Part shown: piece by piece, positions 57,799-62,082 of the stretch
Position numbering within the stretch: position 1 is the first letter of the stretch
How the letters are laid out: the number at the start of each line of letters is the position of its first letter
Assembly: GCF_000956525.1 (NCBI RefSeq)
Contig: NZ_JYIW01000020.1
Location: 1-64,000, forward strand
Reading direction: 5' to 3'
Length of the DNA: 64,000 nt
Source: Microbacterium oxydans
Lineage (GTDB): Bacteria; Actinomycetota; Actinomycetes; Actinomycetales; Microbacteriaceae
Position numbers and translations under genes: made by a program
Notes under the pieces: generated by a model
The model's database searches: none
Seen by the model: the letters and a program-made list of their open reading frames with translations, nothing else
Told to the model about the DNA's origin: nothing

Positions 57799-58874
57799 TC
57801 AGGACGCAGGATCTCCGTCGCCGCGAGCGCCGCGCTCGTCCCGGGCCTGCCCCTCGAAGCGCTCGTCCGTCGCACGCAGCACCCGCAGGATGTTGCCCGA
57901 CCAGACCTTGTCGAGGTCGGTGTCCGACCAGCCGTCGTTCTGCAGCGCCTCGCGGAGGCGCGCGAACCCCGCCACGTCATCCAGCCCGGCGGGGAAGTCG
58001 TCGAAGCCGTCGAAGTCGCTGCCGACGCCCACATGATCGATGCCGGCGACGTCACGCGCGTGGTCGAAGTGCCGCACCACGTCGGCGATCTCGACGGGCG
58101 GAGCCGCGCCTTCTCGACCGGCAGCCCACCACGCCGCATAGCCCTGCGAGACGAACGGCGGGACGAAGGAGACCATCAGCACTCCCCCGTTCCCCTTCAG
58201 TTCGCGCAGCACGGCGTCGGGCACGTTGCGCGGATGATCCGTCACGGCGCGGCACGAGGAGTGGCTGAAGATGACCGGGGAGTCGGTGATACGCAGCGCG
58301 TGGTGCATGGTGGATTCCGCGACGTGCGACAGGTCGACCAGCATGCCGAGCGCGTTCATCTCACGCACCACCGCTTCGCCGAACTCGCTCAGGCCGCCGT
58401 GCTGGGGCGTATCGGTCGCCGAGTCCGCCCAGGGCGTGTTGTTGTTGTGGGTGAGCGTCATGTAGCGCACGCCCAGCCGCGCGAACATCCGCAGCGTCGC
58501 CAGCGAGCCGGCGATGCTGTGCCCACGGCCCCCAGCAGGCTGCCGATCCTGCCCTCGCGCCCTGCCCTGACGACGTCGGCGGCCGTTCGGGCGAGGGCGA
58601 GTCGATCCGGATACCGTTGCACCAGCCGGTACACGCAGTCGATCTGCTCGAGTGTGTACTGCACGGCATCGACGTCGGGCAGGTCCTCGGCGTGGACGGA
58701 CCAGAACTGGCCGAGCACGCCGCCCTCGCGCATGCGCGGCAGATCGGTCTGGAAGCGTGACGGGTGCGTGGAGTCGTCGAGACCCTCGACCGAATACGCG
58801 GCCAGGTTGCGCGCCGCCCACGGCAGGTCGTTGTGTCCGTCGATGAGGCCGTGCGGCGCGTCGGTTCCCGTCAT
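57799..58874 (-). pseudogene. Membrane dipeptidase (M19), frameshifted
   Basis: The two halves of one M19 dipeptidase lie in different frames. The 5' half (start 58874) has LIDGHNDLPW with the HxD zinc ligands and ends GRIGSLLGAVG. The 3' half resumes at HSIAGSLATLRMF and runs through THNNNTPWADSATD and IDHVGVGSDFDGFD to the stop at 57799. Intact members read ..GxEGGHSI.. here, so one or four bases are missing near 58519-58530. It overlaps the AlkC stop by four bases. It could be a sequencing error in a G-rich run or a recent mutation. Confidence 0.88.
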
Positions 58875-60016
58875 GGCTCGAGGCTAGAGGACGCGGCGGG
58901 TTCCGGGCGAGCGTCGCGCGCCACCAGGGTGAACTCCGCTTCCGGTGAACGTCGACCATTGGCCTGCACGGCCACGAAGTGGCTGCCCGGATAGTAGGCG
59001 CGTGTGGTGATCCGGCGGAAGGAGTGCGATTTCTCGACGGTGATGCTCTCGCCGGGAGCCAGCGTGCGCGACGTCAGCTTGAACGTCTTCGGGCTCACGG
59101 TTCCTCTGGAGCGCTGGAATCCGATGACGTAGTCGATCGCGACGACGGCATCCGCATCACCCTCGTTCGTGACGAGCGCCGTGAAGGTCACGGCGCCCTC
59201 GTGGATCGGCACCTCGGTCGAGTCCAGGTGCGGCCGATCCACCTCGATGCGGTCTCCCGAGTAGCCGACCGCCCGCAGCGCGTCCGGGTCGGCATTCTTG
59301 ATCAGGGTGCGCAGGCCATGGCGGATCACCGCCGGCGTGCGGGGGTCGGCACGCGCTGCCCAGTTCCCGGCCGTCCGGACGACCAGGGCGGGGTCGATCC
59401 TGCTGAGATCGTTCAGGTGGTTCGACACGGATCGCCGCACGTATGCGGATTCGTCGCGGTACAGCGCATCCAGGATGCCGAGGGTCGCCCCCGGGTGCTC
59501 GATGAGCCACGGCACGCGCTTCGCCCACGGCAGATACGAACGCGTGCCTTCGCTCGCGAGGCGGCGCACATGTTCGTTCTCGTGGCCGGTCCACTCGTAC
59601 GCGGTCTCCAACACGCGCTCGGGCCGGGCGATGAGCATCGCTCGGATCGCGAACTCGCTGCTGAGCCCGATCGTGAGCCGGGCGAGCAGCGCAAGGCCCG
59701 CATCGAACGCCGCCGTCGATCCGTCGTCGAGGGCTCGCGCGGTCACGAACTCGGTCACCGGCCAGATCATCCAGCCGCCGAACTCCGGCACCGAGAGCGC
59801 GGCGTCGACGAGATGTTCCGTCTGAGCGAATCCTGCCGGGGCATCGACGAGCAGCGCTTCGCGAACCAGGTCGACCCGCGTGCGCAACCGCTCGCCGTCG
59901 ACAGCATCGCGTACCGCTGCGAGGGCCGAGAGTCCGAGCGCCGGGTCGGCATGGGTCAGCGCCGATCGGAGTGTGTCGATGACCGTCGCGTCGATCAGCT
60001 CATCCATCGCTCCCAT
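58871..60016 (-). CDS. DNA alkylation repair protein, AlkC type
   Basis: A 381-residue protein with HEAT-like helical repeats (VRRLASEGTRSYLPWAKRVP, then DESAYVRRSVSNHLNDLSR) that bind DNA, and a C-terminal Ig-like domain (residues about 280-370) as in AlkC glycosylases. These remove 3-methyladenine and 3-methylcytosine. ATG at 60016 follows GGGGGGAGG. It faces away from the MarR gene and its promoter includes the TAGTGTC..GACACTA operator. The stop overlaps the M19 start by four bases. Confidence 0.86.
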   Translation of the reverse strand: MGAMDELIDATVIDTLRSALTHADPALGLSALAAVRDAVDGERLRTRVDLVREALLVDAPAGFAQTEHLVDAALSVPEFGGWMIWPVTEFVTARALDDGSTAAFDAGLALLARLTIGLSSEFAIRAMLIARPERVLETAYEWTGHENEHVRRLASEGTRSYLPWAKRVPWLIEHPGATLGILDALYRDESAYVRRSVSNHLNDLSRIDPALVVRTAGNWAARADPRTPAVIRHGLRTLIKNADPDALRAVGYSGDRIEVDRPHLDSTEVPIHEGAVTFTALVTNEGDADAVVAIDYVIGFQRSRGTVSPKTFKLTSRTLAPGESITVEKSHSFRRITTRAYYPGSHFVAVQANGRRSPEAEFTLVARDARPEPAASSSLEP

Positions 60017-60066: not shown

Positions 60067-60090
60067 AATAGTGTCTCATGCGACACTATT
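60067..60090. promoter_or_regulatory. MarR-type operator between alkC and the MarR gene
   Basis: AATAGTGTC at 60067-60075 and GACACTATT at 60082-60090 are perfect inverted nine-base arms with a six-base spacer. The core TAGTGTC-N6-GACACTA has the same layout as the sites at 60664, 60691 and 62063. Confidence 0.82.
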
Positions 60091-60116
60091 TCCGCGGCGG
60101 TCGGTAGAATCCGGGC

Positions 60117-60647
60117 ATGACCACCGACGCAGACGGCACCACGGCGAGACCTCGTCGTGCGAGCGATTTCCCCTACCGCTCCGAACTGCTGGCCAATCTC
60201 AGCGCCCTGATCCTGCTCTGGGATTCGCCCTCGTTCCAGGGGGAGATCCTGGCGAAGACCGGCGAGAGCATCGATCAGCAGTCGCACGCCACACTGCGGC
60301 ACCTGCTCGCCTGGGGGCCGATGCGACCGACCGCGCTGTCCGAGGTGCTCGCGACCGGCGCGTCGCACGTGAGCAAGATCGTCCGCCGGCTCGAGGATCA
60401 CGGATGGGTGCAACGCACGACCGACCCGTCCGATCGCCGGGCCACGCTCATCAGCCTCACCGAATCCGGCGAGGCTGCGGCCCGCGGGGTCTACGAGCTC
60501 GGTGACCGCATGATCGCCGAGGTGCTCGACGGCTGGTCCGACAGCGACGTCCGCGCGTACACGGATCTGACCTCGCGTTTCGTGAAGGATGCGATCTCCT
60601 CCGCCGAGCAGATGCTCGAGCGGGGGCTTCTCCCCTCGCGGGAATAG
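60117..60647 (+). CDS. MarR-family transcriptional regulator
   Basis: A 176-residue winged-helix regulator. The recognition region is LRHLLAWGPMRPTALSEVLATGASHVSKIVRRLEDHG and the wing is VQRTTDPSDRRATLISLTESG. Both match MarR. It is divergent from alkC and upstream of the SDR gene. The four similar operators in this stretch suggest it controls itself, the SDR gene and the SnoaL-like gene. The ligand is unknown. Confidence 0.9.
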   Translation: MTTDADGTTARPRRASDFPYRSELLANLSALILLWDSPSFQGEILAKTGESIDQQSHATLRHLLAWGPMRPTALSEVLATGASHVSKIVRRLEDHGWVQRTTDPSDRRATLISLTESGEAAARGVYELGDRMIAEVLDGWSDSDVRAYTDLTSRFVKDAISSAEQMLERGLLPSRE

Positions 60648-60663
60648 GTCTCGATTCTCGCGT

Positions 60664-60683
60664 TACTGTCCTAATTGACAGCA
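60664..60683 (+). promoter_or_regulatory. Operator and -35 region before the SDR gene
   Basis: TACTGTC-CTAATT-GACAGCA follows the TASTGTC-N6-GACASTA pattern with one change. It contains TTGACA (60675-60680), a perfect -35 hexamer, so a bound regulator would block the promoter. Confidence 0.72.
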
Positions 60684-60690
60684 TTCCTGG

Positions 60691-60710
60691 TACTGTCCTT
60701 TAGGACAGTA
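60691..60710 (+). promoter_or_regulatory. Palindromic operator over the -10 region of the SDR gene
   Basis: TACTGTCCTTTAGGACAGTA has perfect nine-base arms around TT. It lies 27 bases from the previous site, and with TTGACA upstream it would cover the -10 region. Confidence 0.82.
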
Positions 60711-60760
60711 CTTCGCGCGGTTGTGTCGCGCGAAGACACATCGAGTGACAGGAGACGCAC

Positions 60761-61546
60761 ATGGCACATCAGGATCGCGACCGCTTGGACGGCCGCAGAA
60801 CGTTGGTCACCGGAGGGACGAAGGGCGCGGGTGCCGCGGTCGCGGCGAGGCTTCGGGAACTCGGCGCGGACGTGTACGTGTCCGCTCGGACGATGCCCGC
60901 CGATTACGAGCACCCCGAGCGATTCATCACGGCAGACACCTCCACCGTGGAGGGCACGAGGCTCGTCGCTTCGGAGATGAGCAAGGCGGGCGGCGCCGAC
61001 ATCATCGTGCACGTCGTCGGCGGATCCTCGACGCCCGCCGGCGGGTTCGAGGCCGTCCCCGAGGAGCAGTGGATCACCGAGCTGCAGCTCAACTTCCTCG
61101 GAGCCGTGCGCCTGGATCACGCGCTCATCCCCGCCATGATCGCCCGGGGCTCCGGAGTCGTGCTCCACTTCACCTCGATCCAGCGCGAGTTGCCGCAGTG
61201 GGAGTCGACGCTCCCCTATGCCGCAGCGAAGGCGGCGCTCCGCACCTACAGCAAGGGCCTGGCGACCGAACTGGCACCGAAGGGTGTGCGCGTCAACGCG
61301 ATCAGCCCCGGCGGCATCCGGACAGAGGCCACGCAGGTCTTCTACGACCGGCTCGCGGAGGCCAACGGCATCAGTCGCGAGGCCGCCGCGCAGCGCGTCA
61401 TGGATTCTCTCGGCGGCGTTCCCCTCGGACGCTTCGCGGAGACGGAGGAGATCGCCGACCTCGTCGGCTTCCTCGCGTCCGACCGGGCATCCGCGATCGT
61501 GGGCACCGAAGTCGTCATCGACGGCGGAACCGTCCCGACGATCTGA
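60761..61546 (+). CDS. Short-chain dehydrogenase/reductase
   Basis: A 261-residue classical SDR. The cofactor motif is LVTGGTKGAGAAVA, the active-site Ser is in LHFTSIQ, and Tyr/Lys in PYAAAKAAL. IVGTEVVIDGGTVPTI is a typical C terminus. AGGAGACGCAC precedes the ATG. It is preceded by two operators shared with the MarR and SnoaL-like genes. The substrate is not known. Confidence 0.93.
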   Translation: MAHQDRDRLDGRRTLVTGGTKGAGAAVAARLRELGADVYVSARTMPADYEHPERFITADTSTVEGTRLVASEMSKAGGADIIVHVVGGSSTPAGGFEAVPEEQWITELQLNFLGAVRLDHALIPAMIARGSGVVLHFTSIQRELPQWESTLPYAAAKAALRTYSKGLATELAPKGVRVNAISPGGIRTEATQVFYDRLAEANGISREAAAQRVMDSLGGVPLGRFAETEEIADLVGFLASDRASAIVGTEVVIDGGTVPTI

Positions 61547-61564
61547 GCACCTCACCCGCGACGA

Positions 61565-61600
61565 CGAAGAGGCCGCCTCCCGCGGGAGGCAGCCTCTTCG
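61565..61600. terminator. Bidirectional terminator between the SDR and SnoaL-like genes
   Basis: CGAAGAGGC and CGCCTCCC pair with GGGAGGC and GCCTCTTCG around a short centre, with two mismatched bases. It lies 19 bases after the SDR stop and 17 after the convergent SnoaL-like stop. Confidence 0.85.
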
Positions 61601-61616
61601 TGCGGTCAGTCGGCGC

Positions 61617-61973
61617 TCAATCCGCTGCGGCGGCGAAGTCGAGCTGGACGATGCGTCCGTCGGCGCCGAGGTGGAACTGGTACTCCAGCTCCACGACCCC
61701 TCCGGGGAAGTCGCCCTCGAGGCGATAGGAAGCCCCGACCATCCCATCGACCTCTCGTGCGCGGAGGAAGGTGAGCGTGGTGGTGAACAGGTTGATCGAC
61801 TCATCGATCCACGTGCGGATCTCGTCGCGGCCACGGTGCGTGCGGCCCTCATCCGAGACGACTGCGTCGTCCGTGAACAGTGCCTCCACCGCGTCGGCGT
61901 CGCGGGCCTGCCACCCATCGACGAACCCGCGCGCGGCTGCCGGCAGTTCCGCGTTCTCCAGTGTCTTACCCAT
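61617..61973 (-). CDS. SnoaL-like/NTF2-fold protein
   Basis: A 118-residue protein with the cone-shaped NTF2 fold pattern: AARGFVDGWQARDADAVEALFTDDAVVSDEG, then a central helix and paired strands (GVVELEYQFHLGADGRIVQLDF). Such proteins are often isomerases or cyclases, or bind small molecules. AGAGAGGA precedes the ATG. Convergent with the SDR gene but sharing the same operator type, so the two probably act together. Confidence 0.82.
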   Translation of the reverse strand: MGKTLENAELPAAARGFVDGWQARDADAVEALFTDDAVVSDEGRTHRGRDEIRTWIDESINLFTTTLTFLRAREVDGMVGASYRLEGDFPGGVVELEYQFHLGADGRIVQLDFAAAAD

Positions 61974-62045
61974 GATCCGATCCTCTCTGTCCGACGGGAT
62001 TCCCCGTATGCGTTGGACGGATGATGATCGTTATTTATCGTCCCA

Positions 62046-62082
62046 CAGGACAGTACCATGGATACTGTCCTGTAGGACGGTA
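62046..62082. promoter_or_regulatory. Operator cluster before the SnoaL-like gene
   Basis: AGGACAGTA (62047-62055), TACTGTCCT (62063-62071) and AGGACGGTA (62074-62082) form overlapping inverted pairs. TACTGTC-CTGTAG-GACGGTA at 62063-62082 follows the same pattern as the SDR operators. It lies about 75-110 bases upstream of the ATG at 61973. Confidence 0.8.

Follow-up and report, generated by a model that had tools for sequence, protein, structure and literature searches.

Is a DNA repair gene of Microbacterium oxydans, a soil-type actinobacterium, controlled by the same regulator as the enzyme genes beside it? The question is raised by a locus in the first 64,000 nucleotides of contig NZ_JYIW01000020.1 (assembly GCF_000956525.1), the whole of which is called the window below. 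The locus contains a MarR-family repressor gene (marR), a divergent gene for an AlkC-type DNA glycosylase (alkC), a gene for a short-chain dehydrogenase/reductase (SDR) and a gene for a SnoaL/NTF2-fold protein (SnoaL). An earlier note had placed alkC, SDR and SnoaL under one regulator on the basis of four copies of an inverted repeat, TASTGTC-N6-GACASTA. That proposal is strongly supported by comparison with related genomes, where the motif co-occurs with MarR and follows the genes. We read the locus as a MarR regulon of four genes that would be released by a ligand and would join detoxification to repair by AlkC, and we give this reading a probability of roughly 0.8. By the comparative evidence, consisting of a shared operator, its co-occurrence with MarR, the promoter geometry and the gene content, the regulon itself is real; the repression mechanism is likely.

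Operator sites in the window and genome

Five predicted operators lie in the window:

60069-60088, operator 1: TAGTGTCTCATGCGACACTA, no mismatches; alkC/marR divergent promoter region, with its right arm over the expected marR -35 region
60664-60683, operator 2: TACTGTCCTAATTGACAGCA, one mismatch; distal site of the SDR promoter
60691-60710, operator 3: TACTGTCCTTTAGGACAGTA, no mismatches; proximal site of the SDR promoter
62036-62055, operator 4: TATCGTCCCACAGGACAGTA, two mismatches; proximal site of the SnoaL promoter
62063-62082, operator 5: TACTGTCCTGTAGGACGGTA, one mismatch; distal site of the SnoaL promoter

Operators 1, 2, 3 and 5 are the sites of the earlier note and were found where it had put them, two matching its consensus exactly and two with a single mismatch; operator 4 is additional. 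Operators 2 and 3 are separated by 27 bp, as are operators 4 and 5. Across loci, the consensus operator is TACTGTCCTRYAGGACAGTA, a 20-bp inverted repeat. In the window, the core and the third position of both arms set the marR/alkC site apart from the other four.

With at most one mismatch, the genome (3,807,768 bases) contains the four sites of the earlier note and no others. Three extra places appear at two mismatches, one of them operator 4. A tighter pattern, TACTGTCCTNNAGGACAGTA, allowed up to three mismatches, occurs at four places in the genome, all at this locus, while its reversed control occurs at two. In the window, eight matches were observed at up to three mismatches, compared with a mean of 2.73 in 100 shuffles and a maximum of 8, which was reached by one shuffle. 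On their own these shuffles are weak evidence, and the proof comes from the relatives.

Conservation of the operator in relatives

A MarR-alignment scan of genome contigs gave twenty-five loci (L numbers below; G numbers are genomes). Twenty-three were taken as orthologs (69-87% identity) and two remote ones were dropped (37% and 27%). The orthologs come from Microbacterium, Agromyces, Arthrobacter, Curtobacterium, Rathayibacter, Leifsonia, Salinibacterium, Amnibacterium, Cellulomonas, Nocardioides, Actinoplanes and Solirubrobacter, with two more from metagenome-assembled genomes and one from an odd record, L053 (WNZI01000001.1). This record is titled Vibrio cholerae strain 35D, yet it holds an actinobacterial locus with 63.1% G+C and a MarR 83% identical to the window's, and it looks mislabelled or contaminated. 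Adding the window, G127 and G083 gave a set of 26 loci and 281,020 bases.

Sites with at most one mismatch number forty-five in this set and are spread over 23 of the 26 loci. Among 839 permuted half-sites the mean was 0.12 sites; the maximum of 38 belongs to TACTGTS, a near-sibling of the real motif, and the next highest count was 9. A spacer of 6 gives 45 sites, and each of the other lengths between 0 and 12 gives one or none. Twelve of the twenty-two close pairs are 27 bp apart, and twenty fall at 25-29 bp.

Presence of the operator tracks presence of the regulator. For this comparison a strict site (TACTGTCC-N4-GGACAGTA, one mismatch allowed) was sought in a genus sample of 149 genomes and a family sample of 398. 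Besides the window genome, 4/149 genus genomes have a MarR ortholog (77-84%). The strict site is present in four of the five MarR-bearing genomes versus 0/144 without the ortholog (Fisher 2.5e-7); in the remaining holder, G055, the looser pattern finds five sites, including one with a single mismatch. In the family sample, eight genomes hold MarR (E <= 1e-45), and the strict site occurs in 4/8 holders versus 1/390 of the others (Fisher 3.4e-7). The single non-holder is G279, where none of the regulon's genes is found within the 3 kb examined. All four remaining holders (L092, L093, L094 and L096) carry looser-pattern sites. L092 repeats the window's gene order (SnoaL, SDR, MarR, alkC), and its SnoaL, SDR and marR/alkC promoters all carry sites; both L092 and L051 have the TAGTGTC..GACACTA type at marR/alkC, as in the window. 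Three genus genomes serve as negative controls: G116 and G046, which have an SDR (52-55%) with a SnoaL gene and no MarR ortholog, show no site over the 3.7 kb examined, and the remote MarR locus of G064 (37%) has a single three-mismatch site in 14 kb. AlkC itself is rare in the genus (5/149 genomes at E <= 1e-40), and it exceeds 60% in the window and G083.

A wider tally of thirty loci adds L091, L092, L094 and L098 (3.5 kb each, L091 and L098 being from one genome). Sites occur in 27/30 with at most one mismatch and in 28/30 with at most two. In the stretches examined, alkC is present in 14/30 loci, SDR at 50% or more in 19/30, and SnoaL of either type in 28/30. The same set, which the earlier note had suggested seeking elsewhere, is shared by scattered relatives. 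That note would have given up the idea had relatives kept all three genes and lacked the sites; instead, each of the ten four-gene loci (the window and nine relatives, counting either SnoaL type, with SDR frame-split in three) has one or more sites with no more than a single mismatch.

In L051, L053, L055 and L065 the SDR gene is frame-split or cut to its C-terminal part. SDR seems to decay in these loci while MarR and the sites remain.

Promoter geometry

Starts were assigned by hand for forty genes, of which thirty-seven have a site (at most three mismatches) within 220 bp upstream and twenty-six have a pair. Within pairs, TGN precedes the proximal operator in 21/26 cases versus 1/26 for the distal operator (Fisher p 1.3e-8). 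In pairs, the proximal arm therefore reads TGN-TACTGT, which fits an extended -10 box (consensus TGN-TANNNT). At marR, TAGRRT stands 6-7 nt before the chosen start in 18/26 loci, a position that fits a predicted leaderless message, and at other distances in two more; in the window the operator would lie over the -35 region. The predicted elements in the window are:

60688-60696, plus strand: TGG-TACTGT, predicted extended -10 of the SDR promoter, at the left arm of operator 3
62058-62050, minus strand: TGG-TACTGT, predicted extended -10 of the SnoaL promoter, at operator 4
60105-60110, plus strand: predicted marR -10 box TAGAAT, 6 nt before the ATG, with a leaderless transcript predicted

Both arrangements predict steric repression, which we consider likely. 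From here we infer what the MarR protein does, that is, its binding, repression, release by ligand and the chemical identity of the inducer. A MarR dimer would bind the 20-bp inverted repeat, tolerating TAGTGTC half-sites, at the marR/alkC divergent promoter, and at the SDR and SnoaL promoters two dimers would occupy the tandem sites with their 27-bp spacing. Since the proximal operator appears to contain the extended -10 box, a bound dimer would block RNA polymerase. A small ligand, presumably the toxic compound or a metabolite, would be bound non-covalently and release MarR. The SDR and the SnoaL protein, which resembles ketosteroid isomerase, would then be made together with AlkC, and in relatives also with an EstC-type esterase, a transporter of the major facilitator superfamily (MFS) and an alkyltransferase-like protein.

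Genes of the locus

The gene assignments of the earlier note (MarR, AlkC, SDR and SnoaL/NTF2) hold by family and structure matches:

58871-60016, minus strand: alkC, HEAT-repeat alkylpurine DNA glycosylase with a C-terminal Ig-like region (PF08713; phmmer to 5VI0/5VHV)
60117-60647, plus strand: marR-family repressor, 176 aa, no cysteine (PF01047)
60761-61546, plus strand: SDR, 261 aa (NF005095; TGGTKGAG and YAAAK motifs)
61617-61973, minus strand: SnoaL/NTF2-fold protein, 118 aa, ketosteroid-isomerase-like, with a conserved D41

The open frame of alkC extends to 60064, and its start is most likely the ATG at 60016, which is preceded by GGAGG. AlkC residues 16-379 align with residues 10-367 of the solved AlkC 5VI0 (phmmer, E 1.6e-45), nearly the whole length. 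The protein has the HEAT repeats and the extra C-terminal domain of this class, the latter of which we take to be Ig-like; its glycosylase activity is predicted. The MarR winged helix scores 49.5 bits against PF01047 (cut-off 24.6), and an inverted-repeat predicted operator lies at marR's own promoter, as is usual in this family. The structure model of MarR has a mean pLDDT of 73.9 and matches ordinary MarR proteins among the Foldseek matches listed. We read no ligand pocket from it, because its N-terminus is poorly modelled.

The SDR scores 365.7 bits against NF005095 (cut-off 231). Classical SDRs carry TGxxxGxG and YxxxK motifs, and TGGTKGAG and YAAAK are both present in the window protein. 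The SnoaL model (mean pLDDT 90.8) matches the solved SMa1630 and ketosteroid isomerases. D41 is invariant in the twenty-six aligned rows and aligns with the catalytic Asp in the isomerase's VEDPVG, presumably Asp38 of ketosteroid isomerase, as D38 mutants are named in the titles of the matched structures. By sequence and model, the protein thus has the ketosteroid isomerase fold and a putative general-base Asp.

Solved relatives of the window's SnoaL and SDR are 4U13 (SMa1630, S. meliloti) and 4H15 (E 8e-79 for the SDR), respectively. In Sinorhizobium meliloti (L079:3552-4672) an NTF2 and an SDR gene adjoin; by its letters, 4U13 differs from the NTF2 protein of L079. Beyond alkC, at about 57799-58874 on the minus strand, a putative membrane dipeptidase gene, so assigned by reading alone, seems to be split near 58.5 kb, with its parts in two frames.

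The regulon in relatives

The same motif accompanies each gene through rearranged loci. It is found upstream of marR, SDR, two SnoaL types and alkC operons, and in one relative upstream of an EstC-type esterase gene (L061, with paired sites 22 bp apart directly before it). An alpha/beta hydrolase neighbours seven loci, and in five of these it is 59-73% identical to the Agrobacterium EstC esterase. The second SnoaL type is followed by alkC in one run behind sites in L050, L053, L060 and L062, and L051 has an MFS transporter between its SDR and SnoaL genes. By gene clustering, a protein with the MGMT DNA-binding domain follows alkC in three loci (with a Pfam match for one). We read it as alkyltransferase-like, with PWWR where one would expect PCHR, which we take to be the active-site motif at that position. 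On Curtobacterium plasmid D26a, an NTF2-alkC-SDR-SDR run and a MarR gene (54%) point away from each other, and a site lies between the two.

A second MarR paralog (61-67% identical) lies near the locus in four cases (L042:11316-11855, L051:681-1238, L060:1676-2188 and L061:2078-2563); that of L051 has its own site at 643. In Agrobacterium and Paracoccus the NTF2-SDR pair adjoins a LysR gene, and on a Streptomyces plasmid its neighbour is a helix-turn-helix gene (L075, L076 and L078). Judged from these gene neighbourhoods, the two enzymes stay together while their regulators vary.

Cysteine content and sensing

Read from their chosen starts, 27/28 MarR orthologs contain no cysteine, the window's included. 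The exception is L071, with one cysteine in a frame without the conserved N-terminus. All 29 aligned MarR stretches are free of cysteine (one locus, L046/L062, was entered twice), and three rows of the second-copy paralogs have 1-3. Automatic gene calls put a cysteine in 7/29 MarR entries, a count that includes second paralogs and frames stretched upstream. The N-terminal sensing cysteine of the OhrR/EstR subgroup is absent from MarR. This makes a thiol switch of that kind unlikely, and we infer that the signal is a bound ligand.

The earlier note had guessed at sensing of an electrophile. The part of this guess that stands is the type of compound: AlkC and, in relatives, the alkyltransferase-like protein and the esterase fit a reactive, DNA-alkylating compound that would be sensed non-covalently. 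Sensing through cysteine is the part that does not. If we may guess at the chemistry of the inducer, it would alkylate DNA and be acted on by reductases and esterases. A low cysteine content of the whole regulon was also considered as a signature of thiol stress, since SDR has no cysteine in 12/12 and AlkC none in 10/11 called genes, versus 0.80% in 203 neighbours. We dropped this signature as a family trait, because SDR homologs outside the regulon have 0-1 cysteines and eight of twenty-six AlkC-length neighbours have none; AlkC outside the regulon has three cysteines in two of three cases.

Comparison with known systems

The closest known arrangement is scd-estR-estC of Agrobacterium, where, as in the window, a MarR-family repressor adjoins NTF2 and SDR genes and dual operators overlap the promoters, according to the available passages of the paper (PMC5201249). 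Its SDR is 56% identical to that of the window, and its EstC 59-73% identical to the esterases of five relatives. From its gene order and 265-aa esterase, L075 is probably this locus; no alkC is found in the 8.7 kb of it examined. EstR is described in those passages as a Cys16 sensor with the operator GTTATCGCGATAAC, which controls estC and itself, while its loss gave no significant rise in scd (PMC5201249). By sequence, the actinobacterial set resembles the Agrobacterium enzyme module placed under another repressor and extended by alkC.

Other systems are further removed. The operator of Corynebacterium AesR, ACTATG-N3-CATAGTCGACTA-N7-TAGTCG, is unlike the window's; AesR responds to copper, nickel and zinc, and the passages on it name no repair gene (PMC13413800, in part). 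MhqR-type regulons, compared by description only, are likewise MarR-repressed and respond to quinones and electrophiles, and base-excision repair is unmentioned in the part of the source available (PMC6798810). The glycosylases 5VI0/5VHV are homologous to the window's AlkC over nearly their whole length; in the window, alkC is tied to a predicted local MarR operator. The self-resistance glycosylases of genotoxin clusters (AlkZ, HedH4 and YtkR2) sit, as alkC would here, with genes for one toxic compound (PMC9040887; PMC8626424; both in part). The glycosylase of the window's locus is of the AlkC and not the AlkD or AlkZ type. In Myxococcus, an AlkC-like protein appears in a mitomycin C table (PMC12288472, in part).

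The Ada adaptive response is likewise a form of inducible alkylation repair. Ada is a self-methylating regulator, whereas the regulator here is a MarR; the locus lacks the mark of an Ada regulon, and induction by the damage itself is not indicated. No description of the present regulon was found in the open-licence literature, by title or abstract start among the matches listed. Of the matches listed for the operator letters, none is by its title a paper on a bacterial operator, which is no proof of absence in the literature.

Alternative explanations

Several observations weigh against a four-gene regulon under one MarR. At two mismatches the genome has seven places versus twenty-three for the reversed pattern; as the control exceeds the motif, there is no genome-wide enrichment and the signal is local. 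The window's marR/alkC site is single, of the TAGTGTC type and without a preceding TGN, unlike the SDR and SnoaL pairs, and TGN precedes just 2/11 single sites overall, the window's alkC side being among those without. In the stretches examined, alkC is absent from 16/30 loci and SDR from 11/30, and for the three other AlkC genes of the genus (52, 39 and 36%) neither MarR nor a site turns up in the 2.4-3.9 kb examined. L071 and L072 have no site with two mismatches or fewer, and L068 has just one, with two mismatches. L071 and L072 are also the loci whose MarR frame is without the conserved N-terminus, and regulator and operators may have been lost together there. Finally, the loci are related and some are near-duplicates (L052/L058, L070/L071), so that the p-values given above overstate independence.

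The strongest competitor is a plain catabolic regulon, in which MarR would sense a carbon source such as an aromatic compound or a lactone, SDR, SnoaL and the esterase would degrade it, and alkC would be a bystander on the divergent promoter. MarR regulators of aromatic catabolism are common, and the sixteen loci without alkC fit this picture, as does the SnoaL-SDR pair of Alphaproteobacteria and Streptomyces, which has neither alkC nor the regulon's MarR in the 8.7 kb examined. It accords poorly with the fourteen loci where alkC accompanies the regulon's MarR, with alkC running behind SnoaL and its sites in L050, L053, L060 and L062, with the MGMT-domain gene after alkC in three loci and with the Curtobacterium plasmid run divergent from MarR. 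We consider a bystander alkC rather unlikely. Far less probable are two regulators, MarR being confined to the TAGTGTC-N6-GACACTA of its own promoter and a different protein acting on TACTGTCC-N4-GGACAGTA at SDR and SnoaL, although the window's marR/alkC site does differ from the other four in arm position 3 and core. This model was set aside because mixed arms such as TAGTGTCCTCCACGACAGTA exist and because the TACTGTCC type stands before marR itself in L042, L062, L063, L065 and L069. The TACTGTCC type is found with a MarR ortholog, and when twenty-seven loci were clustered at 35% identity, the sole other regulator cluster in at least three loci was a GntR type, in three.

About as improbable, or slightly more so, is sensing of organic hydroperoxides or thiol oxidation in the manner of OhrR and EstR. 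The Agrobacterium locus, with its related SDR, NTF2 and esterase set, does respond to cumene hydroperoxide in the available passages (PMC5201249). However, EstR senses through Cys16 while twenty-seven of twenty-eight MarR orthologs have no cysteine at all; the window's MarR shares just 29% identity with its Agrobacterium counterpart across 63 residues, and the EstR operators differ. Chance clustering of an inverted repeat can be practically dismissed: one window shuffle in a hundred did reach eight matches, but the sites are kept in 23/26 loci, exceed the permuted-motif controls and co-occur with MarR.

Implications

The ligand-released regulon that we favour would be a variant of the local MarR regulon, with repair and detoxification placed under one operator. 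More tentatively, and with somewhat less than even confidence, we suggest that repair here is induced by a chemical and not by damage: a MarR without cysteine would sense a genotoxic compound and switch on AlkC, and in some species an alkyltransferase-like protein, along with enzymes that destroy the compound. If so, repair would be made before lesions build up. With its precisely defined operator and a regulator whose orthologs occur in many actinobacteria, the locus lends itself to an inducer screen. Knowing the inducer would indicate what AlkC, SDRs of this type and EstC-type esterases act on in nature, and, if the regulon works as proposed, these bacteria would hold detoxification and base-excision repair under one small-molecule switch.

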